DNA of 64,000 bases from Candidatus Dormiibacterota bacterium (GCA_955652675.1 CATPBP010000019.1:1-64000), one strand, 5' to 3'. Shown: positions 5,940 to 63,474, counted from the first letter of the stretch. The notes: generated from the sequence alone by a model not told the origin. Translations and numbers: made by a program.

Positions 5940-5945
5940 TACCAT
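5940..5945 (+). promoter_or_regulatory. Putative -10 element TACCAT for leaderless VOC gene
   Basis: TACCAT ends 7 nt before the ATG at 5953. The same hexamer with the same 7-nt spacing precedes the carboxylase gene at 35589. No ribosome binding site is seen. Confidence 0.5.
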
Positions 5946-5952
5946 GACTGGC

Positions 5953-6303
5953 ATGGTCACAGGCATACATGCGCTGATCTTCTCTCGCGAGGCTGAACAG
6001 GCTCGCGCCTTCTTTCGAGATGTGCTCGGGTTCAAATCCGTCGACGCCGGAGGCGGCTGGCTGATCTTCGCCCTGCCCCCGGCCGAGCTCGGCATCCACC
6101 CCACCGAGGAAGAAGGTCGCCAGGAGCTCTACCTGATGTGCGACGACATCGAAGCCACCGTCGCCGAGCTCAAGGACAAAGGGGTCGAAATTGCCCGACC
6201 CATCTCAGACGAGCGCTTCGGCCTGGTCACCTGGCTCCGGATCCCGGGCGGCGAGCTGGCGCTCTATCAGCCCAAGCATCCGACGGCGTTGCCCCTCCCC
6301 TGA
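5953..6303 (+). CDS. VOC (glyoxalase/bleomycin resistance) superfamily protein
   Basis: A single VOC domain of about 116 residues, beginning VTGIHALIFSREAEQARAFF and continuing with a typical beta-alpha-beta-beta-beta module (FRDVLGFKSVDAGGGW; YLMCDDIEATVAELKDKG). The VOC fold binds a divalent metal or small molecules and covers lyases, dioxygenases and resistance proteins, so the activity is open. An ATG 9 nt upstream (5944) is in frame, but it lies inside a TACCAT -10 hexamer, so 5953 is the better start. The gene is convergent with the membrane protein at 6315, and a hairpin spans the junction. Confidence 0.8.
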   Translation: MVTGIHALIFSREAEQARAFFRDVLGFKSVDAGGGWLIFALPPAELGIHPTEEEGRQELYLMCDDIEATVAELKDKGVEIARPISDERFGLVTWLRIPGGELALYQPKHPTALPLP

Positions 6304-6326
6304 CCGGCGGCCTCTCAGGCCACCGG
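6304..6326. terminator. Hairpin between convergent genes
   Basis: CCGGCGGCC (6304-6312) and GGCCACCGG (6318-6326) pair with one mismatch around a 5-nt loop. The loop contains the stop codon of the minus-strand gene (6315-6317). There is no T-tract on either strand. Confidence 0.4.
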
Positions 6327-6926
6327 CACCTTGCGGCAGGCCCAGGGGCCGAAGCGCCTGAGCGCGACGATCATCCAGATGAAGAGGGCGAGCTCCGCCA
6401 GCCCGAGGATCAGGCCGAGGAGCGCGTTGGGCAGCGGCAGCAGGAAGACCGGCTGCCCAGGGCCGCCCGAGATACCGACTCCGAAGATCTCGAGCGCCTG
6501 CTGTGGGAGGCCGAGTACCGAGAGGCCGGCGGCGATCATCAGCAGCCAGTAGAGCCAGGTCCACCGCCTCAGGGTGCCGATCAAGACCAGCAGGCACCAG
6601 ACGATCGCGAAGGCCACTGTCAGCGCCACTGAAAAGAAGGCCACCTGCTCCGCGATCATCCGGACCTGGTCAGCGTTCTCCACAGTGCCCGGCTGGGAAG
6701 CGAGGGAGAGGTCGATGCTCTGCCGTATCGACCTTCGCAGGTAGTCGCCGAAGTAGGGCAGCAGGAACAGCAAGTTGAGCGCGCCGACCAGCGTCAGGGC
6801 TATCACGGCCAGCTGCATAGGACGCGTCCAGGCGGAGGGCTCCCGGCGGAAGCGCTGAGGTGCAGCGGGAACGGTTGGCACCCACTCTCGCCCGTTCCAG
6901 GCCCAGGCTCCGTCTGGCGACAACAT
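6315..6926 (-). CDS. Membrane protein with N-terminal SPDGxWxWNGxxW motif
   Basis: About 203 residues. The start MLSPDGAWAWNGREWVP resembles the short DUF2510-like 'SPDGKWWWDGxxW' segment found at the N-termini of many actinobacterial and Dormibacterota membrane proteins. Four hydrophobic segments follow: about 38-58 (LAVIALTLVGALNLLFLL), 97-120, 125-145 and 170-195. No catalytic motif is seen and the function is unknown. In-frame codons upstream of 6926 would add an arginine-rich head without the motif, so they were rejected. The gene lies about 100 nt downstream of another membrane-protein gene on the same strand. Confidence 0.7.
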   Translation of the reverse strand: MLSPDGAWAWNGREWVPTVPAAPQRFRREPSAWTRPMQLAVIALTLVGALNLLFLLPYFGDYLRRSIRQSIDLSLASQPGTVENADQVRMIAEQVAFFSVALTVAFAIVWCLLVLIGTLRRWTWLYWLLMIAAGLSVLGLPQQALEIFGVGISGGPGQPVFLLPLPNALLGLILGLAELALFIWMIVALRRFGPWACRKVPVA

Positions 6927-6965
6927 CAGGCGCGTATTGCACCAGCGCAAAGCGCGCAGCCGCAA

Positions 6966-6979
6966 TTCTCGATCGAGAA
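6966..6979. promoter_or_regulatory. Perfect 14-bp palindrome, possible operator
   Basis: TTCTCGATCGAGAA lies 40 nt upstream of the minus-strand start at 6926, in the gap between two membrane-protein genes. A perfect dyad in a promoter position could be a dimeric repressor site. No regulator can be named. Confidence 0.3.
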
Positions 6980-7032
6980 ACGGCGCGCACAGACTGGATC
7001 GGCCGCCGCTGGGGGGAGGCGACGCGGACCGT

Positions 7033-7710
7033 TCAGGCCAGGATGTTGACCGCCCGGGCGGCCACCAGAGCCACCGTAATGAGCGCGACCAGCGCCTGCC
7101 CGGCCATCAACAGTTTTGCTTCGACACTGAGTGGCATGGTGTCGGTCGGGCTGAAAGCCGTGGAGTTTGTGAACGACACATACAGGTAGTCCACGAAGGA
7201 CGGCAGCCAGTTGGCCCCGAGGTCATGGGAGGTCATCTGGGGGAACAGGAACTCCGCTCCCTTGGGAAACTCGTTGATCCGCTGGCCGGGACCTCCGGCG
7301 TCCAGCTCCCAATACCAAAGACCGAACACGAGGACGTTCGTGAGCCAGATCTGGATCGCCGAAAAGATGAGCTGAACGCCGGTGGCTTTGCCGCCCTGGA
7401 GCAGGAAGCGAAGCAGCAGCACCAGCGCCACGGTATTGGCGAGGCTGACCAGCGCGCACTGACCGATCGAAAGCCAGCGAGCAAACTTGGGCTCGTTTCC
7501 ATGCCGATAGGGGGAGACCGCCAACAGCGAGACCAGCAGCCCACCTTCCAGCACCGGCACCAGCCAGCGGGGGCCGATGACCAGCTTCTCTGGCAGCAGC
7601 ACGTAGAGCGCGATGGCGCCGGCCGCCGCCAGGGACGCCCACCAGCGGGGCTCCCGCATCCTCTGACGGGTGCCCTCGCCCGCCGAGCGAAAACGGTTGC
7701 CGAGCGACAT
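7033..7710 (-). CDS. Multi-pass membrane protein of unknown function, DUF1345/ion-channel-like C-terminus
   Basis: 225 residues with about five hydrophobic segments (about 27-42, 52-67, 84-103, 117-134 and 200-222). Near the C-terminus is FVDYLYVSFTNSTAFSPTD, followed by a last transmembrane helix ending AARAVNIL. This layout recalls the pore-loop/inner-helix arrangement of two-TM potassium-channel-like domains, but the selectivity signature GYG is replaced. It could be a divergent channel or a DUF1345-type protein; the match is by pattern only. There is no clear ribosome binding site. It may be cotranscribed with the gene at 6315-6926, with a gap of about 106 nt. Confidence 0.65.
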   Translation of the reverse strand: MSLGNRFRSAGEGTRQRMREPRWWASLAAAGAIALYVLLPEKLVIGPRWLVPVLEGGLLVSLLAVSPYRHGNEPKFARWLSIGQCALVSLANTVALVLLLRFLLQGGKATGVQLIFSAIQIWLTNVLVFGLWYWELDAGGPGQRINEFPKGAEFLFPQMTSHDLGANWLPSFVDYLYVSFTNSTAFSPTDTMPLSVEAKLLMAGQALVALITVALVAARAVNILA

Positions 7711-7851
7711 CAGCTCGGCAAACCCGGCTCGTCGTCGGGGATCGACCGGGCCGCGGTAAACGCCGGCCGGCCCCAGGGCAAGAATCTCACTCGCGTGGAT
7801 ATCCTGACACCCCGAGCGCCAGGGCGCCGCCGCGCCACTCTCGCCTCGGTG

Positions 7852-7887
7852 AAAAAAAGAGGCCTCCGGGCTTCTAGGCCCCCTCTC
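7852..7887 (-). terminator. Rho-independent terminator of the GAF/PAS gene
   Basis: Read on the minus strand, a stem built from GGCCT and AGGCC and extended by G-U/G-C pairs is followed by seven T residues (A7 at 7852-7858 on the plus strand). The stop codon of the gene (7874-7876) lies within the hairpin. Confidence 0.65.
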
Positions 7888-9319
7888 CTCTGCTTGTCTT
7901 GGGCACCGCGGAGCCGGCTCGCCGTTTGCCTGTCAGCACAGGGGGGGGACTCTCGAAGAAGGTGGTCACCACCCATTTGAGGCGCGACCCCTCCTCGATC
8001 GCCCGCGAGTCTATACGCAGCCAGCGCGGCTGGCCGCCAGGCGGCGTGACGCGGGCTCGCAGACCCTGGACCGGCCGGGCCGACTTGAGGACCGATTCAG
8101 GCGGGCGCAGCGGAAGGGGAATCGCCATTCCGTTCTCGCCCTGCATGGTCCAGTCGGGCCCGAAGACGCCCTCCTTCGCCATCTGCTTGAGGGGCATCCC
8201 GGTCAGGTTCTCAGCTGCCCAGTTGGCGTCTATCAGCCGGCCGCGGCTGTCGTGAGTGACCGCGCCGCAGGCAAGCCCGTGATAGAAGGAGCGGAGGGTC
8301 CTCTTCGCCTCGCCCAGCTCGTCGCGTAGGCGCATGCCTTCCAGGAGTCCGGTCAGCGCGGAGACGAGCACGCTGGCGATCTGCACGTCGGCGGCCGAGA
8401 AGGGACGCAAACGAGAGGCCACGATGAAGATTCCGATCACGTCTGCCGCAACGGCCACCGGCACCGCCAGCACGTGCCTGGTGTCGCCGGCGATGAGGAC
8501 GTCCTGCTCGGAGCAGGCGGGGTCGTCCCGGTCGAAGACGGCGATCCTGCGCTCCTTGACGGCCCGGGCCACCAGGCCCGCGTCCTGCTCGACAAGCAGG
8601 AGATTGACGGGCTCCGTGCTGGCCTTGATCCAGAGCCCGCGCTTCGATTCCTCCTTCATGAAGAGGATGGCGCGGTCGATCCCGGGAACCTCGCCCACGC
8701 GGTTGACCACCACGGTCGCGGCCTCATGGGAGTCCTCGGCCCCCGAGGCGCCGGCGATCATCTGCGGCAGCAGCTCGAAGGCGACAGCCAGGCGTAGTTC
8801 GAGGTCGAACTCGGTGGCGGCGGCGAGCGCCAGGCCACCGAGGTCGGCGACGCCGCCCAGCATCTCCAGGTCCGCCTCCGGGTCCGGGCTGGCATCCTCG
8901 AGGGGGACGCTGACCAGGCCGAACGGTTTGCCGTAGGAAATCAGCGGAGCCAGTGCCACACGACGCCAGCGGCGGGCGCCGTAACGGCTCCGGAGGTCGG
9001 CCGGCACCTCTCTGATGCCGAGAAGCAGGGTGCGCCGCGCCGCCAGCACTTCCTGGAGCTGGCCCTCGACCGGGAGGCCTGGCGTCACGGTCGGCGCCGT
9101 CCCACCGAACTCGGCCTCGAGGAGGAGCTCGGATCCGCGCAGTTTCCACACTGTGGCAGCTCCCGTCTCACCCGGTGGCCGCCAGACAGATTTGGCGGCG
9201 GCGGACGCCACCTCTTCCAGCACGACGTCGAGTGGATCTCCATCGTTCAGCGTTCGAGCAGCCTTCAGGAGAAGGGCCAGCCCATGCGTGCTCGTGATGG
9301 GTTCGGACTGGAGCCTCAT
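7874..9319 (-). CDS. GAF-GAF-PAS sensor protein without output domain
   Basis: 481 residues, no transmembrane segment. Two GAF domains are recognisable (about 20-170 and 185-335; the second has IDRAILFMKEESKRGLWI and LAVPVAVAADVIGIFIV). A PAS-like domain follows (about 345-460) with GAVTHDSRGRLIDANWAAENLTGM. No kinase, GGDEF, EAL, phosphatase or DNA-binding domain follows, so it must act through another protein or serve as a ligand-binding adaptor. The start has GGGGG about 8 nt upstream. It is transcribed alone, divergent from the lipoprotein gene. Confidence 0.75.
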   Translation of the reverse strand: MRLQSEPITSTHGLALLLKAARTLNDGDPLDVVLEEVASAAAKSVWRPPGETGAATVWKLRGSELLLEAEFGGTAPTVTPGLPVEGQLQEVLAARRTLLLGIREVPADLRSRYGARRWRRVALAPLISYGKPFGLVSVPLEDASPDPEADLEMLGGVADLGGLALAAATEFDLELRLAVAFELLPQMIAGASGAEDSHEAATVVVNRVGEVPGIDRAILFMKEESKRGLWIKASTEPVNLLLVEQDAGLVARAVKERRIAVFDRDDPACSEQDVLIAGDTRHVLAVPVAVAADVIGIFIVASRLRPFSAADVQIASVLVSALTGLLEGMRLRDELGEAKRTLRSFYHGLACGAVTHDSRGRLIDANWAAENLTGMPLKQMAKEGVFGPDWTMQGENGMAIPLPLRPPESVLKSARPVQGLRARVTPPGGQPRWLRIDSRAIEEGSRLKWVVTTFFESPPPVLTGKRRAGSAVPKTSRGEGA

Positions 9320-9678
9320 CGTCTATCCCCCGCTTCTTTAATGCCTGACCAGTCGTGTCTACGAAGCTGGCGCCGCAACAGAGCAATATCCCGCCTGCTC
9401 GGCCCTGCGAAGAAGATGTGGGGGGCCGACATCAAAGATGCCGGCCCCCGTCTGTAGGGGGAAGAGTCGAAATAAGATGAGGTCGTTCTAGGCTGCCGGC
9501 AGGTTCGGGTTGCGCAAGAGTTGAGGACTCCTGCGGGACGTGGGCAACCTTGGCAATCCTCCCGACGCAGCTGCTTGGCTCCTGAAACTCGCTTACACAC
9601 TCGACGCCTCAGCGGCAACTTTTGATCGGTTCGGCCCCGGAACCGGGGAGTCTCGAGCGGTGTAGAAGAGCCAGATCG
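9320..9678. other. 359-bp gene-free divergent intergenic region
   Basis: Separates the GAF/PAS gene (minus) from the lipoprotein gene (plus). I see no convincing coding sequence. The main structure is the hairpin at 9421-9449. Promoters for both genes must lie here; no strong TANNNT/TTGACA pair stands out. Confidence 0.6.
9421..9449. other. Strong hairpin (13-bp stem, one mismatch, AAA loop)
   Basis: GGGGGCCGACATC (9421-9433), loop AAA, GATGCCGGCCCCC (9437-9449). Neither strand has a T-tract, so it is not a classical terminator. It could be a structured 5' leader element, a small RNA or a protein-binding dyad. Confidence 0.5.
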
Positions 9679-10941
9679 ATGAAGGGACGCACGCTCGTAA
9701 CGGCCTGTCTCTGGGGAGTGCTGATGGGCTGCTCTTCGCAGCCCACCCACGTCTCGGCACCCTCTCCCACGGTTCCAGCCGCACCCGTTGAGGCCGTACC
9801 GGTTGAGGCCGCACCGGGTGCGGGTGTGGCCTGGCTGGGCGAAGCCGGCCGGATGCGCGGATTCACGCCCGACGGCCGCGAGCTCTCGCTTGCCGGCCTG
9901 CCGCTGTTCAACAGCAGCAACGAGGGCACCGGTCTTCGCTCCGCCGACGGCCGGCGCCTCTACGTGGTGTCGTCGGGCAAGCTGACGGTCGCCGCCGCGA
10001 TGGACGGCCGGGTAGAGCGCCTCATTGATCTTCCGCCGGCATGGCGCCTCCCCGCGGCGCCTCTGACGGCGGCCTCGCTGAGCCCGGACGGCCGCTGGCT
10101 GGCCCTGGAATCCAATATCTCGGCCACCGATCTTCTCCTGGTCGATCTCGAGTCCGGACTGGCCGCCGCATCCGGCTCGCTCGCCATCGACCAGCGGGGA
10201 GGGACGGCGCCGCCCGGCGCCGGACTTCTGGCGCTGCCCAGCGGCCGTCTACTGATGCTCCTGCCGGGCACCGAGGAGGCTGTGATGGGATCCCCGCGGA
10301 ATGGACGGCTGGAAATCCAGTCGCGGCTCTCCGATCACGGTCTGTCATGCGCGAGCCCCACGCTCCTGCACGCCCTGCCCAGCGGCTCGGCAGCGATGGG
10401 CTACTGCCCCATGGACGGGCGAGTCTGGTGGCTGGACCTGGACAGCTTCCGTCTAGCCGGCGCGGTGCAGGCCAGGATCGGCAACCCGTTCTGGGGTGCG
10501 CCGCTGTTCACGCCGGACGGCCGCCTGCTGTACGTGTACGACAGCTGGGATGGCGGCGTGAGCGTTGTGGACCTCGTCGGCCGGCACCTGCTCGACACCC
10601 GGGCCACCGTGGGTAGGAGGACCGCTCTTCACCTTCCCTTTGCGGAGGACGCCTACGCCAAGGGGCCGAACTTCTCGGCTGCACTCTCCGCGGATGGGTC
10701 CACGCTCTTTGCAAACGGTGCGCGGGACTCCGCCGCGGGCATCTACGCACTGAGCACACGAGACTGGTCGGTTAGGACCCACTGGTTCGACGGCAGGAGG
10801 TACAACTCGATCTGGGCGGGCGGTGATGGCCGCCAGCTCTACGCCATCCGAGAGGGCGGGCCGCTGGACATCATCGATCTTCGGACCAGCTCCGCCCGCA
10901 CCGCCTCGCTGGGCGTGGAGGCCGACTTCACAGTGGCGTAG
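9679..10941 (+). CDS. Lipoprotein with beta-propeller-like repeats
   Basis: 420 residues. The N-terminus MKGRTLVTACLWGVLMGC is a lipoprotein signal peptide with lipobox LMGC; Cys18 would be lipidated and the protein anchored outside the membrane. A Pro/Val/Ala-rich linker follows. The rest holds repeated blade-like motifs of the form SPDGRWLALE, TPDGRLLYVYD, SADGSTLFANG and GDGRQLYAI, as in YVTN/WD40-like beta-propellers. No enzymatic motif is seen, so ligand binding or scaffolding is most likely. An in-frame ATG at 9622 was rejected because it would place 19 polar residues before the signal peptide. Confidence 0.78.
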   Translation: MKGRTLVTACLWGVLMGCSSQPTHVSAPSPTVPAAPVEAVPVEAAPGAGVAWLGEAGRMRGFTPDGRELSLAGLPLFNSSNEGTGLRSADGRRLYVVSSGKLTVAAAMDGRVERLIDLPPAWRLPAAPLTAASLSPDGRWLALESNISATDLLLVDLESGLAAASGSLAIDQRGGTAPPGAGLLALPSGRLLMLLPGTEEAVMGSPRNGRLEIQSRLSDHGLSCASPTLLHALPSGSAAMGYCPMDGRVWWLDLDSFRLAGAVQARIGNPFWGAPLFTPDGRLLYVYDSWDGGVSVVDLVGRHLLDTRATVGRRTALHLPFAEDAYAKGPNFSAALSADGSTLFANGARDSAAGIYALSTRDWSVRTHWFDGRRYNSIWAGGDGRQLYAIREGGPLDIIDLRTSSARTASLGVEADFTVA

Positions 10942-10952
10942 GGAGGGGGTGG

Positions 10953-11828
10953 CTAGCGCCTCTTTGCTCTCGCCGCCGCCTCGTCTGCCGCCTGCCTGGC
11001 CTGAGCCGCCTCGTTTTGGGCGGCTGCCGCTTCGCCCTCCGCCGCGTCCGCCTCCTCCTGGGCTCTGGCGGCCTCCCTCAGAAGGCTTCTCGCCCGCCGG
11101 GCCAGCTCGTCCGCCCGGGAGCGGGCCGCCACGGCGGCGCGCTCGCGCTCGGCCGCGAGCTTTCGGGCTTCAGCCGCGCGGGCTACCCCCTCGACGCCTG
11201 ACGCCTCCTGGCCGGCTCGAGAAGACTCTTCGCCGGTGGCCGCCTCCTTTCGACCCTCGCCGCGCTCCCCAGCCTCCGCCCCGCCCTCGCGGGTGCCGGC
11301 CGAGATCAGCTCGAAGCCGCCAGGCTCCACCTCGGCCGGCAGTGAGCCCTGAGCCAGGCGGCGCCCGCTCTCGCCCGGCTCGGTGGATGCCGCCCGCAAC
11401 GTTGCCGCCAGGCGCCTGCCCACCTCGTCCCCGCCACCGTGGCCGTTTTCGGCGGCGTAGCTCTGCGCCGCCCGCACGAGGGCCTCGATCAGCTGCGAGT
11501 GCCGGGCGATCAGCTCACGAAAGCGGCGCCTGGCGCCGGCATCACCGCGAGCCGCCTTCGCCTGGGCGCCCTGCAGCTCGCCGCCCACCGCCAGCAGTTC
11601 CTCGAGCTCGGGTGCGGCCACCTCGCTAAGGCGGTTGGCCAGCCAGAGGCTGAGAGTCGGGCGGCGCAGGGCGGCGACGCGGCCGGCCAGCTCCCGCTCG
11701 CCCTGCCCTCGCAGCTCCCGGACAAGGCGGCCGCGGGCGGCCACGAAGTCCTCCGGCCGCTCGCTGTAGAGCCGCCGGGAGACCTCTTCCAACGCCTCTT
11801 CAGAACTGGGCTGCTTCTGGCTGCTCAC
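10953..11828 (-). CDS. Ala/Glu/Arg-rich coiled-coil protein
   Basis: 291 residues. The N-terminal third has the pattern EDFVAARGRLVRELRGQGERELA followed by LRRPTLSLWLANRL. This module is shared by many uncharacterised high-GC Gram-positive coiled-coil proteins. The last 90 residues are a near-continuous Ala/Arg/Glu heptad-like coiled coil. No membrane segment or enzymatic motif is seen; function unknown. GTG start at 11828, with a TACCAT hexamer (11841-11846, reverse) 12 nt upstream. Divergent from the Hsp20 gene. Confidence 0.65.
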   Translation of the reverse strand: MSSQKQPSSEEALEEVSRRLYSERPEDFVAARGRLVRELRGQGERELAGRVAALRRPTLSLWLANRLSEVAAPELEELLAVGGELQGAQAKAARGDAGARRRFRELIARHSQLIEALVRAAQSYAAENGHGGGDEVGRRLAATLRAASTEPGESGRRLAQGSLPAEVEPGGFELISAGTREGGAEAGERGEGRKEAATGEESSRAGQEASGVEGVARAAEARKLAAERERAAVAARSRADELARRARSLLREAARAQEEADAAEGEAAAAQNEAAQARQAADEAAARAKRR

Positions 11829-11880
11829 GGCAACGAATCGATGGTAGACCGGTCGGCAATGCCGGGCCAGGCGGCCACTT

Positions 11881-11886
11881 TAAAAT
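11881..11886 (+). promoter_or_regulatory. Putative -10 element TAAAAT of hsp20
   Basis: TAAAAT ends 7 nt before GTG 11894; the spacer is a G-run. The G-run could instead act as a ribosome binding site, but it directly abuts the start. Confidence 0.45.
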
Positions 11887-11893
11887 TGGGGGG

Positions 11894-12316: not shown

Positions 12317-12340
12317 AGGTGCGGCAAAGCCGTTGATTTA

Positions 12341-12365: not shown

Positions 12366-12401
12366 AAACCTTTTGGGCGTAAGATCGCCGTGGCCTCGCC
12401 C

Positions 12402-18390: not shown

Positions 18391-18606
18391 TCAATCGGTG
18401 TAGCGCTGGATCAGCCCGTCTTCGCGCCGCTTCTCCTCCTGGTAGAGGGGGCAGTCCTCGAAGTCGCGGACGCAGATCGGCGGCGATTCCCGCAGCGCCA
18501 GCTTCACCTTTGACTTGTGGTCGACGTGACAGTCGAAGTGATACACGCGGAGCGGTCCACGCCGTTCCTTGTAGAGCTGTTCCAGATAAGGGCAGCGACG
18601 CACCAC
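18391..18606 (-). CDS. Cysteine-containing 71-aa protein
   Basis: Four cysteines (CPYLE near residue 5, DCHVDHKSK, ICVRDF, DCPLY) suggest one bound zinc or Fe-S cluster; the spacing is too wide for a standard zinc ribbon. It opens the operon with the M55 peptidase and zinc-ribbon genes. The GTG start is only 14 bp from the divergent ligase start, with TAACTT (18613-18618 reverse) 6 nt upstream. I do not recognise the family. Confidence 0.6.
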   Translation of the reverse strand: MVRRCPYLEQLYKERRGPLRVYHFDCHVDHKSKVKLALRESPPICVRDFEDCPLYQEEKRREDGLIQRYTD

Positions 18607-18620
18607 TACGATAAGTTACC
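18607..18620. promoter_or_regulatory. 14-bp divergent promoter with two overlapping -10 hexamers
   Basis: The whole gap between two GTG starts is TACGATAAGTTACC. On plus, TACGAT (18607-18612) lies 8 nt before the ligase GTG. On minus, TAACTT (reverse of 18613-18618) lies 6 nt before the small gene's GTG. Any -35 contacts must fall inside the opposite gene. Confidence 0.5.
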
Positions 18621-21050: not shown

Positions 21051-21683
21051 TCAGCGGCGGGCAGCGCCCTCCTGGGGCACCGGGACCGCTGGCGGGGCGT
21101 CGATCATGCCGTCGATCAGCCCGTAAACGATCGCCTCTTCGGGGGACATGTAGTAGTCGCGGTCGGTGTCGCGCTCGATGCGCTCCAGAGGCTGCCCGGT
21201 GTGCTGGGCGATCAGCTCATTCAGCTCGTTCTTGATCCGGAGGATCTCCCTAGCGTGGATGTCCAGGTCGGTCGCCTGGCCGGTCAGCCCGCGTCCGGCG
21301 ATCAGCGGCTGATGCACATGGATCCGCGCGTTGGGAAGGGCGAAGCGCTTGCCCTTGGCGCCGGCCATGAGCAGAACCGTGCCGAAGCTGGCGGTGCGGC
21401 CCACGGCCACCGTGGAGATGGGCGGCTTCACGTACTGCATGGTGTCGTAGATCGCCATCCCCGAGGCCACGGCGCCTCCCGGGGAGTTCACGTACATCTG
21501 GATCTCTTTGTCCGGGTCCTCCGCGGCCAGGAAGATCAGCTGTGCGACGATCAGGTTGGCCATCACGTCGTCGATCGGGCGTCCGACGATCACGATGCGG
21601 TCGCGCAAGAGCCGGGAGTAGATGTCGAAGGCACGCTCCCGGTTGCCGCCCTCGTTCTCGATCACGGTGGGTACCCACGCCAT
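21051..21683 (-). CDS. clpP: ATP-dependent Clp protease proteolytic subunit
   Basis: 210 residues. The Ser99-His124-Asp172 triad is visible: Ser99 in GRTASFG, His124 in HVHQP, Asp172 in [30 protein letters not shown] is the ClpP signature. GRTASFG departs from the usual GxAASMG, a change common in second ClpP copies, so this may be one of two paralogues. The C-terminus is short and acidic. Clp ATPases are not in the window. A TAGGAT hexamer 9 nt upstream suggests a leaderless transcript. Confidence 0.93.
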
Positions 21684-21692: not shown

Positions 21693-21698
21693 ATCCTA
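21693..21698 (-). promoter_or_regulatory. Putative -10 element TAGGAT of clpP
   Basis: Reads TAGGAT on the minus strand, 9 nt before the ATG at 21683. Confidence 0.45.
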
Positions 21699-22988: not shown

Positions 22989-23013
22989 CCACTCCCCTTA
23001 CTGGGAGTGGTCA
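22986..23013. terminator. Perfect 11-bp hairpin spanning both stop codons of a convergent pair
   Basis: TGACCACTCCC (22986-22996), loop CTTACT, GGGAGTGGTCA (23003-23013). The first TGA is the stop of the O-methyltransferase. The final TCA is the reverse of the moaX-like stop. There is no T-tract. Confidence 0.6.
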
Positions 23014-23742
23014 GGGAAGGTCGGGCGTGCCGACCGGCCCGGACGCGGTCCGTGGGTCGGCGGCGGGGGGAGCCTCGCGTGCCTGGGTCCCCTCGATCCA
23101 GACAGCGCCGGAGCGCGCGAACTCCTTCTTCCAGATCGGCACCGACTCCTTGAGTCGGTCGATTCCCCGGCGGCAGGCGTCGATTGCCTCGGCACGGTGC
23201 GGGCAGGAGACCGCGACCACCACCGACGCCTCCCCTATCTCCAGGAATCCGGTCCGGTGGGCGATCGCGATACGGGCCTCCGGCCAGCGCTCGGCAATCT
23301 CGTCAGCGATGACCCGCATCTGCTTTTCGGCCATCTCCGCGTAGGCCTCGTACTCGAGGTGGGTGACCTCCTCGCCTCTCGAATTGTCGCGAACGATCCC
23401 GGTGAAGGTGCAGATCGCGCCGGCCCCTGCGTGCGCCACCGCCGCCTCCAGCCTGCGCGCGTCGAGCACCTCGCTGGTCACCTCGAAGAGCACTCCACCC
23501 TCTGAGCCACCGCTCACCGGGGGGATGAAGGCGATCTCGTCTCCGTCCTTCACGGAATCCGTCCATTGCGCGAAGGACTCGTTGAGCGCGGGCTGGATCA
23601 ACGACAGGTTGGCTTCCAGCGCCGGATGTCGCTCGCGCAATGCGGAGTAGACGTCCGCCACGCTGGCTCCGGCCAGGTCGAGCTCCTCCGTGGTCCTCCC
23701 CGCCTGCTCGCGGAGCCGTGCGAATAGCCTGGCCGTGATCAC
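23011..23742 (-). CDS. MoaD-MoaE fusion, molybdopterin synthase (MoaX-like)
   Basis: 243 residues. Residues 1-79 are MoaD, the ubiquitin-like sulfur carrier, with FARLREQAG at the start and the essential C-terminal Gly-Gly at 78-79 (PPVSGG). Residues 85-225 are MoaE, with ICTFTGIVRDNS, HLEYEAYAEMA, HRTGFLEIGEASV and the catalytic lysine motif PIWKKEFA. Molybdopterin synthase adds two sulfurs to cPMP. The Gly79-Ser80 junction matches the layout of mycobacterial MoaX, which is cleaved after Gly-Gly to free the thiocarboxylate tail. Other moa genes are absent here. GTG start, with TAAGAT 6 nt upstream. Confidence 0.9.
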   Translation of the reverse strand: MITARLFARLREQAGRTTEELDLAGASVADVYSALRERHPALEANLSLIQPALNESFAQWTDSVKDGDEIAFIPPVSGGSEGGVLFEVTSEVLDARRLEAAVAHAGAGAICTFTGIVRDNSRGEEVTHLEYEAYAEMAEKQMRVIADEIAERWPEARIAIAHRTGFLEIGEASVVVAVSCPHRAEAIDACRRGIDRLKESVPIWKKEFARSGAVWIEGTQAREAPPAADPRTASGPVGTPDLP

Positions 23743-23748: not shown

Positions 23749-23754
23749 ATCTTA
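23749..23754 (-). promoter_or_regulatory. Putative -10 element TAAGAT of the moaX-like gene
   Basis: Reads TAAGAT on minus, 6 nt before GTG 23742. It overlaps the TAA stop (23752-23754) of the upstream SLOG gene, so the fusion could be expressed independently. Confidence 0.45.
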
Positions 23755-30075: not shown

Positions 30076-30081
30076 TAGGTT
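30076..30081 (+). promoter_or_regulatory. Putative -10 element TAGGTT of the DUF5655 gene
   Basis: TAGGTT ends 6 nt before GTG 30088. The same hexamer precedes the YgjP-like gene at 43234. Confidence 0.45.
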
Positions 30082-30087: not shown

Positions 30088-30570
30088 GTGACATCCGCCC
30101 CAGGGGCGCGGCGGCTGCCGATGTGGACGTGTCCGATCTGTGGGCGGACCTTCGCCAACCGGAACCAGTCACATACCTGCCGCCCGGTCGGCGACCTGGA
30201 GCGGCACTTCCAGCGCGGCGAGCCGGCGGTTCGCGCCACCTTCGACCGCCTGCTCGAGATCGTTGCCGCGCTCGGCCCGGTGACGGTGCTGCCGGAGAAG
30301 ACCCGCATCGCCCTCCACGTGCGGATGAGCTTCGCCGCGCTGATCCCCCGCCGGCGATGGCTTGACGGCCACGTCGTGCTGGCGCGACGGCTGGACAGTC
30401 CGCGCTTCCGGCGCATCGAGACCTACTCTCCACAGAACGTGCTCCACGCCTTCCGTCTCACCTCGCCGGCGGAGGTGGACGACGAGGTGGCGGCGTGGTT
30501 CGCCGAGGCCTACGCAGTCGGCGAGCAGCGGCACCTAGAGCGCAGAGCGCCCAGGTCGTCGGAAGGCTGA
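30088..30570 (+). CDS. Zinc-finger + DUF5655 domain protein
   Basis: 160 residues. Near the N-terminus, WTCPICGRTFANRNQSHTC supplies a CxxC...HxC zinc site. The rest is a DUF5655-like domain with FDRLLEIVAALGPVTVLPEK, RIALHVRMSFAAL and a helical end. Function unknown; similar domains occur alone or in transport-associated proteins. GTG 30088 is favoured by the -10 hexamer 6 nt upstream; ATG 30121, just before the zinc motif, is the alternative. Confidence 0.72.
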   Translation: MTSAPGARRLPMWTCPICGRTFANRNQSHTCRPVGDLERHFQRGEPAVRATFDRLLEIVAALGPVTVLPEKTRIALHVRMSFAALIPRRRWLDGHVVLARRLDSPRFRRIETYSPQNVLHAFRLTSPAEVDDEVAAWFAEAYAVGEQRHLERRAPRSSEG

Positions 30571-31604: not shown

Positions 31605-31618
31605 ACGATAGATGTCGT
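31605..31618. promoter_or_regulatory. Possible operator between the WYL regulator and alkA
   Basis: Short inverted repeat ACGA-N6-TCGT in an AT-rich stretch of the divergent promoter region. The dyad is weak. Confidence 0.25.
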
Positions 31619-35575: not shown

Positions 35576-35581
35576 TACCAT
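35576..35581 (+). promoter_or_regulatory. Putative -10 element TACCAT of the carboxylase gene
   Basis: TACCAT ends 7 nt before GTG 35589; identical in sequence and spacing to the element before the VOC gene. Confidence 0.5.
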
Positions 35582-40826: not shown

Positions 40827-40832
40827 TAGATT
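40827..40832 (+). promoter_or_regulatory. Putative -10 element TAGATT of apbE
   Basis: TAGATT ends 6 nt before GTG 40839; the gap to the PAP2 stop is only 40 nt. Confidence 0.5.
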
Positions 40833-43218: not shown

Positions 43219-43224
43219 TAGGTT
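43219..43224 (+). promoter_or_regulatory. Putative -10 element TAGGTT of the YgjP-like gene
   Basis: TAGGTT ends 9 nt before ATG 43234. Confidence 0.45.
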
Positions 43225-44830: not shown

Positions 44831-44836
44831 ATTGTA
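44831..44836 (-). promoter_or_regulatory. Putative -10 element TACAAT of the alcohol dehydrogenase gene
   Basis: Reads TACAAT on minus, 7 nt before ATG 44823. Confidence 0.5.
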
Positions 44837-45585: not shown

Positions 45586-45591
45586 TAAGCT
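45586..45591 (+). promoter_or_regulatory. Putative -10 element TAAGCT of the SDR gene
   Basis: TAAGCT ends 8 nt before ATG 45600. Confidence 0.5.
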
Positions 45592-48708: not shown

Positions 48709-48714
48709 ATGCTA
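48709..48714 (-). promoter_or_regulatory. Putative -10 element TAGCAT for the gene at 48398-48700
   Basis: Reads TAGCAT on minus, 8 nt before ATG 48700. Confidence 0.45.
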
Positions 48715-49655: not shown

Positions 49656-49661
49656 AGTATA
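49656..49661 (-). promoter_or_regulatory. Putative -10 element TATACT of the radical SAM gene
   Basis: Reads TATACT on minus, 6 nt before GTG 49649. Confidence 0.5.
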
Positions 49662-56881: not shown

Positions 56882-56968
56882 GGCCCCTGCGGCCCCCCGG
56901 CCTGGCCTGCGGCCGGGTACTCCCCCGACGTCCCGGGAGAGAGACTTTCCGGCCTTGCCCCTCGGGTC

Positions 56969-57697: not shown

Positions 57698-58527
57698 CCG
57701 GCGGGCACCTTCAGCTCTGAGCGGATGTCCGAGGCCGGCGCAAGCCTGCGCAGTAGGTCTTCGATTGCCGTCTTTCGAGAGGGCGTCGCCACCTCTCCTC
57801 TCACGATCACCTGGTGGTTGGCGACCACCACCGACACCTCGGGCTCGGCGATCTCAGGGTTGGTGGCCAGGGCCTCCCTGACCCGGGCTGCCAGGTGATG
57901 CTCGCCCTCGGTCTCCGGACGGGCCGGGAGCTGGTGCATGGCCTCCTCGAAGAGTTCCTGTAGCGGTTCGGCGGGAAGCTCCGACCCATCGGAGACGGCG
58001 TAGAGCAGCAGGCTGACGACGCGTGCAGCGTGAGGCCGGGCGCGCTGGACGAGGTAGCTCCAGTCCAGCTCGGTGGCGGCCAGGATGGCGAGCGCGTCGT
58101 GCCAGTGGCGGGGCCGGTGCTCGGCGTTCGCGATCGCCTTGATCACGACTATGTCCTCGGAGGAGAGAGCCGGTATCTCCCGGCCGAGCACCGACAGCGG
58201 GCGGAGGTGGGCGCGCACCTCCTCGTCGAAGAGGATCCCTCCGGACGACTCGAAGATCAGGTCGACCAGGTTCTCGCCCCAGAATGCCTTGAAGAGCCAG
58301 CCCGGGTCGGTGCGCTCGGCGCGGAACCCGGCCTGCTCGAGAGGACCGAGCGCAGCCTCTGCGTGCTTGCGCGTCAGGAACAGGTCGACGTCCTTCGTGC
58401 TGCGTTCCCGGCCCACGGTGGCGGCTGCGAGCCCGCCCATGAGTGCATAGGGGATTCCCGCCTGGTCGAGCACGTCGACCGCGCGCAGCAGGACCTCCTC
58501 GTGCTGCTGCTCGATCCGGTCGCTCAC
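57694..58527 (-). CDS. Nucleotidyltransferase fused to a BON domain
   Basis: 277 residues. The N-terminal part (about 15-140) is a MNT/AbiEii-type nucleotidyltransferase: YALMGGLAAATVGRERSTKD then VDLFLT supplies the GG and DxD motifs; VDLIFESSGGILFDEE gives the third acidic position. The C-terminal 70 residues, from AARVREALATNPEIAEPEVS to VIVRGEVATPSRKTAIEDLL, look like a BON domain, normally a membrane- or ligand-binding module of secreted proteins. The combination is unusual. No AbiEi antitoxin is adjacent, and it has 4-nt overlaps with both neighbours. Confidence 0.72.
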   Translation of the reverse strand: MSDRIEQQHEEVLLRAVDVLDQAGIPYALMGGLAAATVGRERSTKDVDLFLTRKHAEAALGPLEQAGFRAERTDPGWLFKAFWGENLVDLIFESSGGILFDEEVRAHLRPLSVLGREIPALSSEDIVVIKAIANAEHRPRHWHDALAILAATELDWSYLVQRARPHAARVVSLLLYAVSDGSELPAEPLQELFEEAMHQLPARPETEGEHHLAARVREALATNPEIAEPEVSVVVANHQVIVRGEVATPSRKTAIEDLLRRLAPASDIRSELKVPAG

Positions 58528-59186
58528 GCCTCACCTCTGAGCACGCTGCCCACCAGACTGGAGTCCAGCCGTTCGAGAAGATCGGCCGGAGAGGAGAAGA
58601 CCTCGGCCGCCCCCGCCGCCTCCAGCTCACAGCCCCCGGTCCCACCCGTGAGCAGGGCGATGCAGCGGAGACCGCAGCGGCCGGCAGCGGCCAGGTCCCA
58701 GACCGAATCCCCCACCGCCACGGCGCGCCGGGGATCGAGCCCGCCGGCTTCCAGAGCCTTTGCGAAGACGTCCGGCTCCGGCTTGGCGGCCTCGACGTCC
58801 TTGGAGCTGATCACCTCGTGTATTGCGTCCTCGGCGTCCAGCTTGCGCAGCAGGACCTCCAGCTCCTCCGGCTTTGCGGAGGTGGCCAGGACGACACGGC
58901 CGCCTCGTCGGGCGATCTCACGCAGGAGCTCGCGGGCCTGGTCGAAGAGGCGCGACTCCTCCCTCAGTTCCCGGTACTGCCGCGAGTGGGCGTCGCTCAG
59001 GTCCGGTTGGTCGCGGCCGATCAGCTCTTTGATCAGCTGCGCGGAGCCCATGCCGATGCAGCGATGAATGCGATACGCCGGCACATCCTCGCCGGCTTCG
59101 GCGAAGGCGCGGTACCAGGCCAGCGTGTGCAGGTAGTTCGAGTCGACCAGCGTTCCGTCTATGTCGAAGATGACGCCTCTTGCCAT
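58524..59186 (-). CDS. HAD-superfamily hydrolase (phosphoglycolate phosphatase-like)
   Basis: 220 residues. FDIDGTLVDSNYLH (nucleophile Asp), ATSAKPEELEVLL (motif II Thr/Ser), KPEPDVFAKALE (motif III Lys) and VGDSVWDLAAAG (motif IV). The cap is of C1 helical type. Likely a small-molecule phosphatase. It lies 31 nt after cofE and overlaps the nucleotidyltransferase gene by 4 nt. Confidence 0.87.
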   Translation of the reverse strand: MARGVIFDIDGTLVDSNYLHTLAWYRAFAEAGEDVPAYRIHRCIGMGSAQLIKELIGRDQPDLSDAHSRQYRELREESRLFDQARELLREIARRGGRVVLATSAKPEELEVLLRKLDAEDAIHEVISSKDVEAAKPEPDVFAKALEAGGLDPRRAVAVGDSVWDLAAAGRCGLRCIALLTGGTGGCELEAAGAAEVFSSPADLLERLDSSLVGSVLRGEA

Positions 59187-59217
59187 GTCCAGACGTACTA
59201 CCAGGTTTGGCGGCGGC

Positions 59218-59961
59218 TCATCTGAAGAGATCCAGCTCCGGCGGACGGATCAGGTCCCGGCCGCTGCCCGGCGGCGCCGGGGGGCGGTAGCCCCGGACCA
59301 CTGCGACCGGAAGCCTGTCCGTCTTCCCCATCACCAGCTCGGCGGCGCAGGCCACCTCGTCCGCGACGGCAACCAGCGTGGCGGTCAGCTCCTGGCCGAA
59401 GTCGTCCGGGCGGCCCCGGTAGTCCACCAGTGCCGGGAGCCCGGCCACGCCCAGGGCCACGTTGGTGATTCCCATCCGCCAGGCGCGCCCGAAGGTGTCC
59501 GCCACGATGAGGCCGAGCCGGCGCCCGGTCAGCTCCTCCAGTCGCCTTCGAAGGGCGGAGGCGCTCGCGTCCGAGTCCTCGGGCAGCAGCGTCACCGAGT
59601 CCGCCCCCGGGACGTTGGAGTGGTCGACCCCGGCGTTGGCACACACGTAGCCCTGCCTGGTCTCCACGATCAGGACTCGCTCGTCCCGCACCACCCTGAC
59701 CGTCTCGTCCAGGATCACCTGGATTACCCTGGGATCCGCCTGCAGACGCTCTGCGTAGCGCAGCGCGGACTCGCCTGGCTCCACCACCTTCAGAGATCGG
59801 ATTCGGCCCTCCGCCTTCGAGACGATCTTCTGGGCCACAACCACGATGTCCTCATCCTGCAGCCGGGCGTGGGCGGCGATCAGCTCCCCCACGTCGTCGC
59901 CAGGCCGCACCTCCGGCAGGCCGGGCACGCCGATCACCTCGACCACGCCCGCCGCCGTCAC
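59218..59961 (-). CDS. cofE: Coenzyme F420-0:L-glutamate ligase
   Basis: 247 residues. Adds L-glutamate to F420-0 with GTP. IGVPGLPEVRPGDDVGELIA, VVAQKIVSKAEGRI, VCANAGVDHSNVPG (GTP/metal site) and DTFGRAWRMGITNVALGVAG are the CofE/FbiB N-terminal landmarks. The FMN-reductase domain found at the C-terminus of mycobacterial FbiB is absent, so reduction of dehydro-F420-0 needs another protein. Overlaps cofC by 4 nt. Confidence 0.93.
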   Translation of the reverse strand: MTAAGVVEVIGVPGLPEVRPGDDVGELIAAHARLQDEDIVVVAQKIVSKAEGRIRSLKVVEPGESALRYAERLQADPRVIQVILDETVRVVRDERVLIVETRQGYVCANAGVDHSNVPGADSVTLLPEDSDASASALRRRLEELTGRRLGLIVADTFGRAWRMGITNVALGVAGLPALVDYRGRPDDFGQELTATLVAVADEVACAAELVMGKTDRLPVAVVRGYRPPAPPGSGRDLIRPPELDLFR

Positions 59962-60578
59962 CGCCTGGCGCGGAGTGCTTCCAGGTCGCTGGGCTCGTCC
60001 AGATCGAGGGCCAGGCCGGAGGACTCGAAGAGCGCGAAGCGCACGCTCCGCTCGGCCGCATCTTCGGCGAACTTCTCCAGCGAAGCGTCCCCGAAATGGA
60101 GGCCGACGGCCCCCGGCGGACTCAGATAGAGGGCGTTGGTGCCGCCTCTTCCGGTGGCCGCCGCGGCCAGCACCGCCGGCCTGCCCAGCCGCCGGCCGGC
60201 CGAGATCATCTCCGCCACGACACCGTCGCTGACCAGCGGCAGATCGCTCGAGAGCAGGACCACGGCGGCCGCGCCGCCGGCTTCAGCGTGCTCGAGTCCG
60301 CGGCGAGCCGCGGGGTTCTGCCCGGCCGGCCTCTCCTCCAGGAGCACCTCCGCCCCCAGCCGCTCCGCCAGCTCGGCAGCCTCCGGGCTCCCGCACACGG
60401 CCAGCACGTGGTCGCCGGCGCGCGCCGCACGAAGCGCCCGCTCGGCGTTCTCGACCGCCAGGCTGCGCCTGGCCGGGGGATCGAGGACAGGGCTCAGCCG
60501 CTGCTTGGCCGAATCGAAGCCCTTGACCAGGACCACCACCCAGACGGGCGCCGGTCCCGGATCGCCGCTCAGCCCCAA
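59958..60578 (-). CDS. cofC: 2-phospho-L-lactate/PEP guanylyltransferase
   Basis: 206 residues. Forms the GDP-activated three-carbon donor used by CofD (FbiD in Actinobacteria, where PEP is the substrate). VVVLVKGFDSAKQRLSPVL is the signature; VVLLSSDLPLVS holds the metal-binding Asp and GGTNALYLSPPGAV the substrate loop. Starts 10 nt inside fgd, ends 4 nt inside cofE. Confidence 0.9.
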   Translation of the reverse strand: MGLSGDPGPAPVWVVVLVKGFDSAKQRLSPVLDPPARRSLAVENAERALRAARAGDHVLAVCGSPEAAELAERLGAEVLLEERPAGQNPAARRGLEHAEAGGAAAVVLLSSDLPLVSDGVVAEMISAGRRLGRPAVLAAAATGRGGTNALYLSPPGAVGLHFGDASLEKFAEDAAERSVRFALFESSGLALDLDEPSDLEALRARR

Positions 60579-61576
60579 CGCTCGCGGAGCCGAGGCAGGA
60601 TCAGCTCGGAATAACGGTGCAGGAAGGACGCCTGGTCGTTGCCCGGGGCATGGAAGACCAGGTGCGTGAAGCCGAGCTCCAGGTAGGGACGGATCTGCTC
60701 GATGTGCTCATCCACGCTGTCCGAGATCAGCCAGCGGCGCCCTGGGTCCTTCACCCGGGTGGCACGCTGCTCCATCTCGAGCGGGTTGTGAACGTCCACC
60801 TTGTCCTCGGCGGGAAGGGCCAGCGCGGCCCAGATCCGGCAGTCCTCATCCGCCCGAACGCGGTCGGGATCGAAGGAGACCTTGACCTCGATGGTCTTCT
60901 CGATCGCATCGAAGTCCCGTCCGGCCGCCTCGGCGCCTTCGCGGACCGCGGGCAGCAGCTTGTCCTTGTAGAGCTCGATGCCTTTGCCCGAGGTGCATAT
61001 GAAGCCGTCCCCCTGCCGGCCCGCGAAGCGAGCAGCGACCTCGCCCGAGGCGCCGACGTAGATGGGGACCGGCTTCTCCGGGCGGTCGTACACGGTCGCG
61101 CCGTGGACGTGGTAGAAGTCACCGTCGAACTCCACGAACTCTTCGGTCCAGAGCTTTCGGATCAGCCGCGTTGCCTCGCTCATGCGCCGGAAACGCTCTC
61201 TGAACTCGGGCCACTCGATCCCGATCACAGGCACCTCGTTCATCGACTCGCCAGTGCCGATTCCCAGGATGACGCGCTCCGGGTACATGACCCCCAACGT
61301 CGCGAAAGCCTGCGCAACGATGGCCGGGTGATAGCGGAAGGTGGGCGTGAGGACGCTCGTGCCCATCAGCACGCGGCTGGTGCGCTCGCCCAGGGCCGCC
61401 AGCCAGGACATGGAGAAGGGCGAGTGGCCATCGGTGTGCCGCCAGGGCTGGTAGTGGTCGCTGACCCAGACGCTGTCGAAGCCGACCTCCTCGGCGAGGA
61501 TCGCAAAATCGAGCAGCGGGCGCGGACCGAACTGCTCCGCAGAGGCCTTCCAGCCCAGCCGGAGGGGATGGCTCAT
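60569..61576 (-). CDS. F420-dependent glucose-6-phosphate dehydrogenase-like luciferase-family oxidoreductase
   Basis: 335 residues, LLM TIM barrel. LGWKASAEQFGPRPLLDFAI, DSVWVSDHYQPWRHTDGHSP (active-site His/Trp/Glu region) and YPERVILGIGTGESMNEVP are shared with Fgd (F420-reducing glucose-6-phosphate dehydrogenase) and the wider TIGR03557-like group. Placement between cofC and two small genes in one operon supports an F420 role. Sugar-phosphate versus other substrates (for example hydroxymycolate-type) cannot be decided. Confidence 0.85.
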   Translation of the reverse strand: MSHPLRLGWKASAEQFGPRPLLDFAILAEEVGFDSVWVSDHYQPWRHTDGHSPFSMSWLAALGERTSRVLMGTSVLTPTFRYHPAIVAQAFATLGVMYPERVILGIGTGESMNEVPVIGIEWPEFRERFRRMSEATRLIRKLWTEEFVEFDGDFYHVHGATVYDRPEKPVPIYVGASGEVAARFAGRQGDGFICTSGKGIELYKDKLLPAVREGAEAAGRDFDAIEKTIEVKVSFDPDRVRADEDCRIWAALALPAEDKVDVHNPLEMEQRATRVKDPGRRWLISDSVDEHIEQIRPYLELGFTHLVFHAPGNDQASFLHRYSELILPRLRERWG

Positions 61577-61764
61577 CGCCGCCTCGGGAAGTAGCGCCGG
61601 TAGCTGAAGGCGATCCCAGCCAGGGCGGCGGCGGCCACCACCACGAGCAGCGCGGCGAGGCTCTGGGCGCCGAACGTGGCGGCGCCGTAAGCCGTCATGA
61701 CGCCGAGCATGGCGAGGGACAGCACTATGAGGACTACCAGGGTGATGGCGCGATGCAGCTTCAC
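61573..61764 (-). CDS. Small two-helix membrane protein (63 aa)
   Basis: Two hydrophobic helices (ITLVVLIVLSLAMLGVMTA and LAALLVVVAAAALAGIAF) and a basic C-terminus RRYFPRRR. GTG start within a 4-nt overlap with the upstream gene, and its stop overlaps the fgd-like start by 4 nt, so it is firmly embedded in the F420 operon. It could tether the operon products or their substrate to the membrane; no direct evidence. Confidence 0.6.
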   Translation of the reverse strand: MKLHRAITLVVLIVLSLAMLGVMTAYGAATFGAQSLAALLVVVAAAALAGIAFSYRRYFPRRR

Positions 61765-62102
61765 TGGGCGGGCAGCCGGTCGATGCCGCTGCGGAGCATC
61801 GCCTCGAGCTCGTCCAGCGGCCGCTCCCGGGTGAACGTGCCCACGTCCTCGCGCTGGAGGCGCTCGCCCTCCCACCAGAGCACCGAGACCGTGTAGTCCT
61901 CCGGACGGTCGTCCTCCCAGGCGACGTCGACCGCTCCCTCGCCCCTGCCCCTGCCGGCGAAGTCGAGTCGCCAGACCGGGTCGTCGCGGAAGAACTCGTG
62001 AAGGCGGGCGCCCTGCGATCGGGCGACCCGGCGCAGGGCCGGCGCGATCACCTCGAAGGCGGCGTCCATCTGCCCGAGCTTGTCCCAGGAGGTTCCCGCC
62101 AT
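61761..62102 (-). CDS. First gene of the F420 operon, unknown function (113 aa)
   Basis: MDAAFEVIAPALRRVARSQG, WRLDFAGRGRGEGAVDVAWE and YTVSVLWWEGERLQRED suggest an alpha/beta soluble domain. No known motif. ATG 62102 lies 8 nt after a TAAGCT hexamer shared with birA. The stop overlaps the small membrane-protein start by 4 nt. Confidence 0.6.
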   Translation of the reverse strand: MAGTSWDKLGQMDAAFEVIAPALRRVARSQGARLHEFFRDDPVWRLDFAGRGRGEGAVDVAWEDDRPEDYTVSVLWWEGERLQREDVGTFTRERPLDELEAMLRSGIDRLPAQ

Positions 62103-62107
62103 TGCTC

Positions 62108-62117
62108 CTAAGCTTAG
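62108..62117. promoter_or_regulatory. Palindromic bidirectional -10 element CTAAGCTTAG
   Basis: TAAGCT on plus (62109-62114) lies 11 nt before the birA ATG 62126; TAAGCT on minus (62116-62111) lies 8 nt before ATG 62102. One palindrome can thus serve as -10 for both genes in a 23-bp gap. Confidence 0.5.
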
Positions 62118-62125
62118 TGGCCGCG

Positions 62126-62770
62126 ATGCGGACGATCCGGCTGGCCAGCACCCCTTCGACGCAGGACTTCGCGCGTCACCTGCCCGAAGGGTCCGTGGTG
62201 GTGGCCGACGAGCAGACCTCCGGCCGAGGGCGGCTGGGCAGGAATTGGGTGGCGCCGGCCGGCTCGGCGCTCCTCGCCTCATTCGTCCTCCACGCCCGAC
62301 CGCTGGCCAGCCTCGCCGCCGGAGTGGCCGCCGCCGAGGCCTGCGGCGACCAGGTCAGGCTCAAATGGCCCAACGACCTGCTCCTGGGGGGCGGCAAGCT
62401 GGCCGGCATCCTGGTCGAGCGCCGCGGCGACCGCTGCATCGTCGGGGTCGGCGTCAACCTGAGCTGGGCACCGCCCGGGGCGTCGAGGCTGGACGCGGAC
62501 CGAGACCGGCTGCTGGAGCGGCTCGGCGCGTCGCTGGTGCGCTGGTTCGCCGCACATGACCAAGAGGTCCTGGCCGCCTGGCGCGCCCGAGCCGAGACGC
62601 TCGGCCGCCGGGTGCGCGTCGAGCTACCTGGGGAGAGCTTCGAAGGTTTGGCCGAAGACCTGGCCGAGGACGGCTCTTTGATCGTGTCCGGCCGGCGGGT
62701 GGCCGCCGGCGACGTCATCCACCTGCGAGAAGCTGGATCTGCGGCAGGATCTCCCCCGAGCGGCCCCTGA
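62126..62770 (+). CDS. birA: Biotin--[acetyl-CoA-carboxylase] ligase
   Basis: 214 residues. Attaches biotin to carboxylase carrier domains. TSGRGRLGRNWVAPAG (biotin/ATP loop), RLKWPNDLLLGGGKLAGIL (catalytic Lys) and VGVGVNLS are diagnostic, and a C-terminal SH3-like domain follows. The N-terminal DNA-binding domain is missing, so it is a group I enzyme that does not regulate bio genes. Overlaps the convergent Sir2 gene by 56 nt. Confidence 0.92.
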   Translation: MRTIRLASTPSTQDFARHLPEGSVVVADEQTSGRGRLGRNWVAPAGSALLASFVLHARPLASLAAGVAAAEACGDQVRLKWPNDLLLGGGKLAGILVERRGDRCIVGVGVNLSWAPPGASRLDADRDRLLERLGASLVRWFAAHDQEVLAAWRARAETLGRRVRVELPGESFEGLAEDLAEDGSLIVSGRRVAAGDVIHLREAGSAAGSPPSGP

Positions 62771-63461
62771 CCACGACGGCCGCCAGCTCGTCAAGCGGCG
62801 TCGGCTCGTCGTTGACGATCACCAGAGGCGCTCCCCGCTCGGCCGCCAGCAGGGGCACCTCCGCCGCCGGGAACACCCCCAGGGAGCTGCCCACTACCAG
62901 CATCAAGTCGCACTCGCGGGCAAGTCCCATGGCTTCGGTGATGGCGGCGGGCGGGAGGGACTCGCCAAAGAAGACGACCGCCGGCTTGATGTGGATCCCG
63001 CCGCAGGTCCGGCAGTGGGGAGGCAGCTCGCTCTCCAGACGTGCCTGGACCTCCGAGCGGGGCTCGCTGGCGCCGCAGTCCAGGCAGCGAACCGTTCGTC
63101 CGTTGCCGTGCAGCTCGACCAGCCGCTGGCTGCCGGCCTTCAGGTGCAAGCTGTCGGTGTTCTGGGTCACCACGCCGGCCAGATGGCCCAGCTCCTCCAG
63201 GGCCGCGAGCGCGTAGTGGCCTGGATTTGGCTGAGCCTCGCGGTATGTGTGCCAGCGCTCCCTGGAGACCATCCAGTAGACGGCGGGATCCTTCAGAAAG
63301 TAGCTGAGCGTTGCGGTCTTGACGGGGTCGTACTGCTTCCAGAGACCGTTCTCGCCCCGGAAGGTGCGAATACCGCTTTCGGCTGAGACGCCCGCCCCTG
63401 TAAACGCCACGCCCCGCCGGGCGGCTCTCACAAGCCTTGCCGCCTCCCCCAGCCCTTCCAT
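62715..63461 (-). CDS. Sir2-family NAD-dependent protein deacylase
   Basis: 248 residues. GVAFTGAGVSAESGIRTFRG (NAD site), VTQNTDSLHLKAGS, ELHGN (catalytic His) and zinc site CLDCG...CRTCGG (two CxxC pairs about 25 apart). GIHIKPAVVFFGESLP and VGSSLGVFPAAE complete the sirtuin core. It lacks the Tyr/Arg pair position typical for desuccinylases as far as I can see, so deacetylase activity is the default. ATG 63461 follows TAGCCT by 7 nt. Confidence 0.9.
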   Translation of the reverse strand: MEGLGEAARLVRAARRGVAFTGAGVSAESGIRTFRGENGLWKQYDPVKTATLSYFLKDPAVYWMVSRERWHTYREAQPNPGHYALAALEELGHLAGVVTQNTDSLHLKAGSQRLVELHGNGRTVRCLDCGASEPRSEVQARLESELPPHCRTCGGIHIKPAVVFFGESLPPAAITEAMGLARECDLMLVVGSSLGVFPAAEVPLLAAERGAPLVIVNDEPTPLDELAAVVVRGRSGEILPQIQLLAGG

Positions 63462-63468
63462 TCACGGA

Positions 63469-63474
63469 AGGCTA
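63469..63474 (-). promoter_or_regulatory. Putative -10 element TAGCCT of the Sir2 gene
   Basis: Reads TAGCCT on minus, 7 nt before ATG 63461. Confidence 0.45.

Follow-up and report, generated by a model that had tools for sequence, protein, structure and literature searches.

TANNNT hexamers as putative -10 elements of leaderless or nearly leaderless genes in a class of uncultured soil Chloroflexota

The recurrence of a TANNNT hexamer a few nucleotides before start codons on both strands of the window, the whole stretch of 64,000 nucleotides analysed here, raises the question whether these hexamers are promoter elements and where transcription would then begin relative to the start codon. An earlier note had listed sixteen of them with their spacers and had read them as a leaderless promoter grammar, with transcription starting at or beside the start codon. 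All 16 match the sequence exactly (Table 1), and this reading is supported by the spacing, the motif, its de novo discovery and the genomic context; it also fits the split of genes into two classes with exclusion of Shine-Dalgarno (SD) sequences, the contrast between Deinococcus and E. coli controls and the conservation in orthologs, all of which are observed directly here. We consider it very probable that TANNNT is a sigma-A -10 element placed for transcription to start at or near the start codon, as in the TA-led leaderless class of Zheng et al. 2011.

Table 1. Candidate -10 elements in the window, called from sequence. The basis is an exact hexamer check, the motif model (with posterior where given) and Pfam where named.
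Element	Position	Strand	Putative -10 of	Spacer (nt)	Basis and remarks
TATCCT	148..153	+	GTG 162	8	posterior 0.96; absent from earlier list
TACCAT	5940..5945	+	VOC/glyoxalase gene, ATG 5953	7	Pfam Glyoxalase; posterior 0.97
TAAAAT	11881..11886	+	hsp20, GTG 11894	7	model, Pfam
TACGAT	18607..18612	+	ATP-dependent DNA ligase, GTG 18621	8	model, Pfam, conserved in orthologs
TACGATA	18607..18613	both	divergent ligase / small Cys protein pair (proposed shared -10)		invariant 30/30
TAACTT	18613..18618	-	small Cys protein (alternative -10), GTG 18606 or GTG 18603	6 or 9	
TAGGAT	21693..21698	-	clpP, ATG 21683	9	model, Pfam, orthologs
TAAGAT	23749..23754	-	ThiS-MoaE fusion, GTG 23742	6	model, Pfam
TAGGTT	30076..30081	+	GTG 30088 (DUF5655 per earlier note)	6	model
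TATCGT	31605..31610	-	GTG 31597	7	posterior 0.93; absent from earlier list
TACCAT	35576..35581	+	carboxyltransferase, GTG 35589	7	model, Pfam, 29/30 orthologs
TAGATT	40827..40832	+	GTG 40839 (apbE per earlier note)	6	model
TAGGTT	43219..43224	+	ATG 43234 (YgjP per earlier note)	9	model
TACAAT	44831..44836	-	zinc ADH, ATG 44823	7	model, Pfam, 22/30 orthologs
TAAGCT	45586..45591	+	ATG 45600 (SDR per earlier note)	8	model
TAGCAT	48709..48714	-	gene at ATG 48700	8	model
TATACT	49656..49661	-	GTG 49649 (radical SAM per earlier note)	6	model
TAAGCT	62111..62116	-	gene at ATG 62102	8	model; AGGAG present too
TAGCCT	63469..63474	-	Sir2, ATG 63461	7	model, Pfam

The positional signal was determined in 0.80 Mb of the genome, with starts chosen without regard to the upstream motif, on coding potential and start codon alone. 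TANNNT occurred at a rate of about 0.3-0.5% per position outside spacers 6-10 and at 4.2, 3.3, 2.0, 1.4 and 1.3% at spacers 6, 7, 8, 9 and 10, respectively, and at spacers 6-9 it preceded 69 of the 512 lead genes, compared with 8.8 +/- 2.7 when the sequence was dinucleotide-shuffled 50 times (maximum 17). The count per offset against shuffled sequence, which the earlier note had put forward as the check on its reading, thus gave a sharp peak at spacers 6-9 in the genome sample. Among genes lying no more than 20 nt behind a same-strand gene it was present in 8/195 (1.2 in shuffles), and the enrichment was largely confined to in-frame start codons, off-frame ones being largely devoid of it. A TA signal might also be produced by in-frame upstream stop codons (TAA, TAG) together with a bias at ORF boundaries, and spacers 6 and 9 do place TA in phase with the start; but the out-of-phase spacers 7 and 8 show enrichment as well, and TA[AG] makes up just 42-52% of the hexamers at every spacer, on which grounds this artefact was ruled out and its probability taken as negligible.

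When applied to 150 kb of D. radiodurans plasmid MP1, the same pipeline found the hexamer at spacer 6-9 in 14.7% of lead genes (4.9x background), and in 200 kb of E. coli K-12 it gave no peak, with 4.3% of lead genes at these spacers (0.5x background). The corresponding values were 13.2% (7.1x background) for the window's genome and 14.8% (8.9x background) for one member of its family, and the same peak appeared in two genomes of the class that belong to other families (14.5% and 15.5% of lead genes).

An unseeded expectation-maximisation (EM) search, in which random starting motifs were fitted jointly with the choice of start over 957 genes (1.08 Mb of the 4.21 Mb genome), recovered TANNNT beside a separate SD class, AGGAGG, in its best solutions. 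The solution of highest likelihood from 14 seeds assigned a weight of 0.40 to AGGAGG, 0.34 to TANNNT at spacer 6-7 and 0.26 to neither, and the logo of high-posterior sites read T 0.77, A 0.98, any base, not T, A or C, and T 1.00. Start-proximal enrichment of A and T is common in high-GC genomes, and A is slightly raised at -14 to -10 in the lead genes here, so that the hexamer could belong to a general A/T enrichment that prevents structure around the start and play no part in a promoter. The unseeded search, however, yields fixed T1, A2 and T6 with positions 3-4 nearly free, and the signal drops in operon-internal genes, with a mean TA posterior of 0.45 in divergent genes vs 0.20 in same-strand genes no more than 20 nt apart. 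That operon-internal genes lack the hexamer, as claimed earlier, therefore holds as a tendency and not as a rule. The SD posterior runs in the opposite direction (0.36 in divergent vs 0.50 in close same-strand genes).

The earlier statement that the hexamer usually stands without a ribosome binding site agrees with the lead genes, where an SD sequence was found in just 3/92 TA genes vs 118/392 others (p 2e-9), an exclusion that is partly steric because the two motifs fall within one and the same stretch of 15 nt; among the listed cases, the gene at 62102 departs from it by carrying both TAAGCT and AGGAG. Between 20 and 90 nt upstream, TANNNT was roughly 3x as frequent in SD-led lead genes (about 0.04-0.09 per 10 nt) as in TA genes (about 0.01-0.03), a diffuse excess that is expected if the promoters of SD-led genes sit above a leader. 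No -35 element was evident among TA genes, as TTGACA matches of at least 4 positions lying 15-19 bp from the -10 occurred in 15.2% of them (shifted controls: 10.6-15.2%) and the aligned logo of high-posterior sites was featureless in the -35 region, and the extended -10 TGn was not notable either (8.7%). If the transcription start site (TSS) had to be a purine, TTG starts would be depleted among TA genes; the counts ran in this direction without reaching significance (5/218 vs 32/647, p 0.12). The region 62102-62117 holds divergent starts no more than 14 nt apart on the two strands, with a competing plus-strand TTG at 62102 that has its own AGGAGG. The genome's sole 16S rRNA match (contig C27, L116:10336-11055) is a fragment ending at the contig edge, without the anti-SD tail.

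Conservation was surveyed for four genes in about 30 genomes of the family by searching for TANNNT 5-10 nt before a candidate start, with at most 3 candidate starts per gene. The hexamer was present in 29/30 orthologs of the carboxyltransferase, 25/30 of clpP, 22/30 of the ADH and 20/30 of the ligase, counts that are not independent because the genomes are related. Orthologous hexamers keep T1, A2 and T6 and vary mainly at bases 3-5, as in the ADH variants TACAAT, TAGAAT, TAAAAT, TATCAT, TAAGCT, TAATCT and TACGAT, a pattern that also speaks against general A/T enrichment and leaves that explanation very improbable beside a -10 element. Most relatives do not conserve the Sir2 hexamer, so the listed cases are not all old. 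In several clpP orthologs the start would be a TTG 10 nt after TAAGCT, and the window's clpP (21051-21683, minus strand) is one of at least 4 ClpP-like matches in its genome. The ThiS-MoaE fusion (23011-23742, minus strand) comprises Pfam ThiS at 5-79 and MoaE at 88-199. By Sir2, the soil MAGs Chloroflexi bacterium CF_78, CF_93 and 13_1_40CM_65_17 are among the nearest named relatives, and their ligase matches have coordinates equal to those of three genomes in the window's family.

In the mechanism that we propose, TANNNT would act as the -10 element of a housekeeping promoter of sigma-A type with no detectable -35, RNA polymerase would start at the start codon or about 0-4 nt upstream, and the mRNA, leaderless or nearly so, would be translated without an SD sequence, its 5'-terminal AUG or GUG presumably being recognised directly. 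The genome would divide its genes into TA-led ones, mostly first and divergent, and SD-led ones with AGGAGG, mostly operon-internal or leadered, whose promoters would lie further upstream. As PMC12825309 puts the optimal spacing between -10 and TSS at about 7 bp, the modal spacer of 6-7 nt would put the +1 on or beside the start codon. The TSS might instead lie several nt upstream of the start, with leaders of 5-20 nt and short-leader translation, which would suit the minority of spacers that reach 9-12 and the 10/30 ligase orthologs whose start lies at least 13 nt from TACGAT; the modal spacer set against the same optimum makes this improbable, and a TSS at or next to the start codon is the reading we prefer.

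The ligase shares its upstream region with the small Cys protein encoded on the opposite strand, and the block TACGATA between them reads TACGAT on the plus and TATCGT on the minus strand. It is invariant in 30/30 genomes of the family, as is no other block in a comparison of 35 columns, the flanks being 37-97% conserved. The Cys protein (18391-18603, minus strand) is an uncharacterised protein of 70 aa with four Cys (RRCPYLE... FDC... ICVRDFEDCPLYQ) and no Pfam match; in 30/30 genomes of the family its gene and the ligase gene point away from each other, and its identity outside its own genome is 64-80%. The earlier start for it, 18606, does have TAACTT at spacer 6, but the start shared with homologues is GTG 18603, one codon further in, which in the window itself stands 4 nt from the minus-strand TATCGT, with TAACTT as an alternative -10. 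Across the family, 29/30 genomes have the Cys protein start 7-8 nt away from the hexamer that serves it, and 20/30 have a ligase start 7-10 nt from TACGAT; both flanking starts lie within 5-11 nt of their hexamers in 19/30, so that each mRNA would carry little or no leader. We lean somewhat towards the view that the family-wide fixed TACGATA is the core of a bidirectional promoter from which the ligase and the 70-aa Cys protein would both be expressed as leaderless or nearly leaderless mRNAs, about 22 bp carrying two promoters and two translation starts.

Bidirectional promoters in which one short, symmetric -10 is shared by both strands, with divergent TSSs commonly 18 bp apart, have been described (Warman et al. 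2021; PMC12825309). The proposed shared -10 TACGATA fits this geometry; in contrast to those promoters, the two mRNAs of the ligase pair would be leaderless or nearly so (19/30), and the block is invariant in the sampled family. Such pairs were rejected as a genome-wide rule: 5 of 237 divergent pairs had TANNNT 5-10 nt from both starts with a gap of no more than 40, and the divergent intergenic gaps showed no clear size peak, so that the bidirectional layout is not claimed genome-wide.

As for the size of the TA-led class, 218 genes were called at a posterior above 0.8 vs 56-73 after shuffling the upstream sequence and repeating the start choice, which leaves, on a cautious reckoning, an excess equal to about 16% of all genes (about 20% of lead genes). 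Just about 13% of lead genes have strict TANNNT at spacer 6-9, and the figure of one third (0.34) depends on the mixture model; the true share probably lies between about 16% (a sixth) and one third.

TA-led genes, in which TANNNT precedes the start by about 12 bp, were defined alongside SD-led genes by Zheng et al. 2011 (PMC3160421), who also reported that the middle three bases are uninformative in high-GC genomes and that the signal is negatively associated with operon-distal position. The same consensus, position, SD-led partner class and operon-internal depletion are found here. Leaderless genes were recorded in that study in 4/12 Chloroflexi at 4.0-5.7% of genes, vs 39.4% in Deinococcus-Thermus, and medium-GC Chloroflexi had the form TAtaaT, whereas the present genome uses TANNNT at a level several-fold higher. 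In D. radiodurans nearly one third of genes have TANNNT in front of the ORF, mostly at 6-7 bp, beside a GGAG ribosome binding site class (Zhong et al. 2025 on Deinococcus-Thermus, PMC12340547); the motif pair, the spacer mode of 6-7 and the fixed T1, A2 and T6 are alike here, in another phylum and by sequence, while the motif was also tested experimentally there. Mycobacterial leaderless promoters, in the available portions of PMC3898074 and PMC4633059, belong to an extensive leaderless transcriptome of a different lineage, with TANNNT in PMC3898074. In the literature on leaderless expression and Chloroflexota that was accessible, its coverage incomplete and the evidence accordingly weak, we found no comparable motif survey. 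What appears to be new is a TA-led layout at roughly the Deinococcus level in a class of uncultured soil Chloroflexota, a phylum earlier recorded as weak in this respect.

The phylum was surveyed by counting TANNNT-N6-ATG against the same-phase TANNNT-N18-ATG over whole genomes, forward and reverse, for ATG only and without gene calls. The N6/N18 ratio was 1.27 in the window's genome (145 vs 114, under 2 sigma) and 1.68, 1.45 and 1.48 in three relatives of its class. Ratios of 3.0 and 2.9 were obtained in family f8 (G059, G069), an enrichment stronger than that in the window's own class, and of 1.47 and 1.68 in f10 (G061, G071), with about 1.0 in f6, f7, f9, f11 and f16. These crude pattern counts suggest that TANNNT usage is patchy within Chloroflexota, and such a spread could be used to study the frequency with which lineages acquire or lose leaderless expression. 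Gene callers that expect an SD sequence may misplace starts which the hexamer can correct, as at 30088, 43234 and 49649, all of which sit 5' of the starts picked by coding potential alone.
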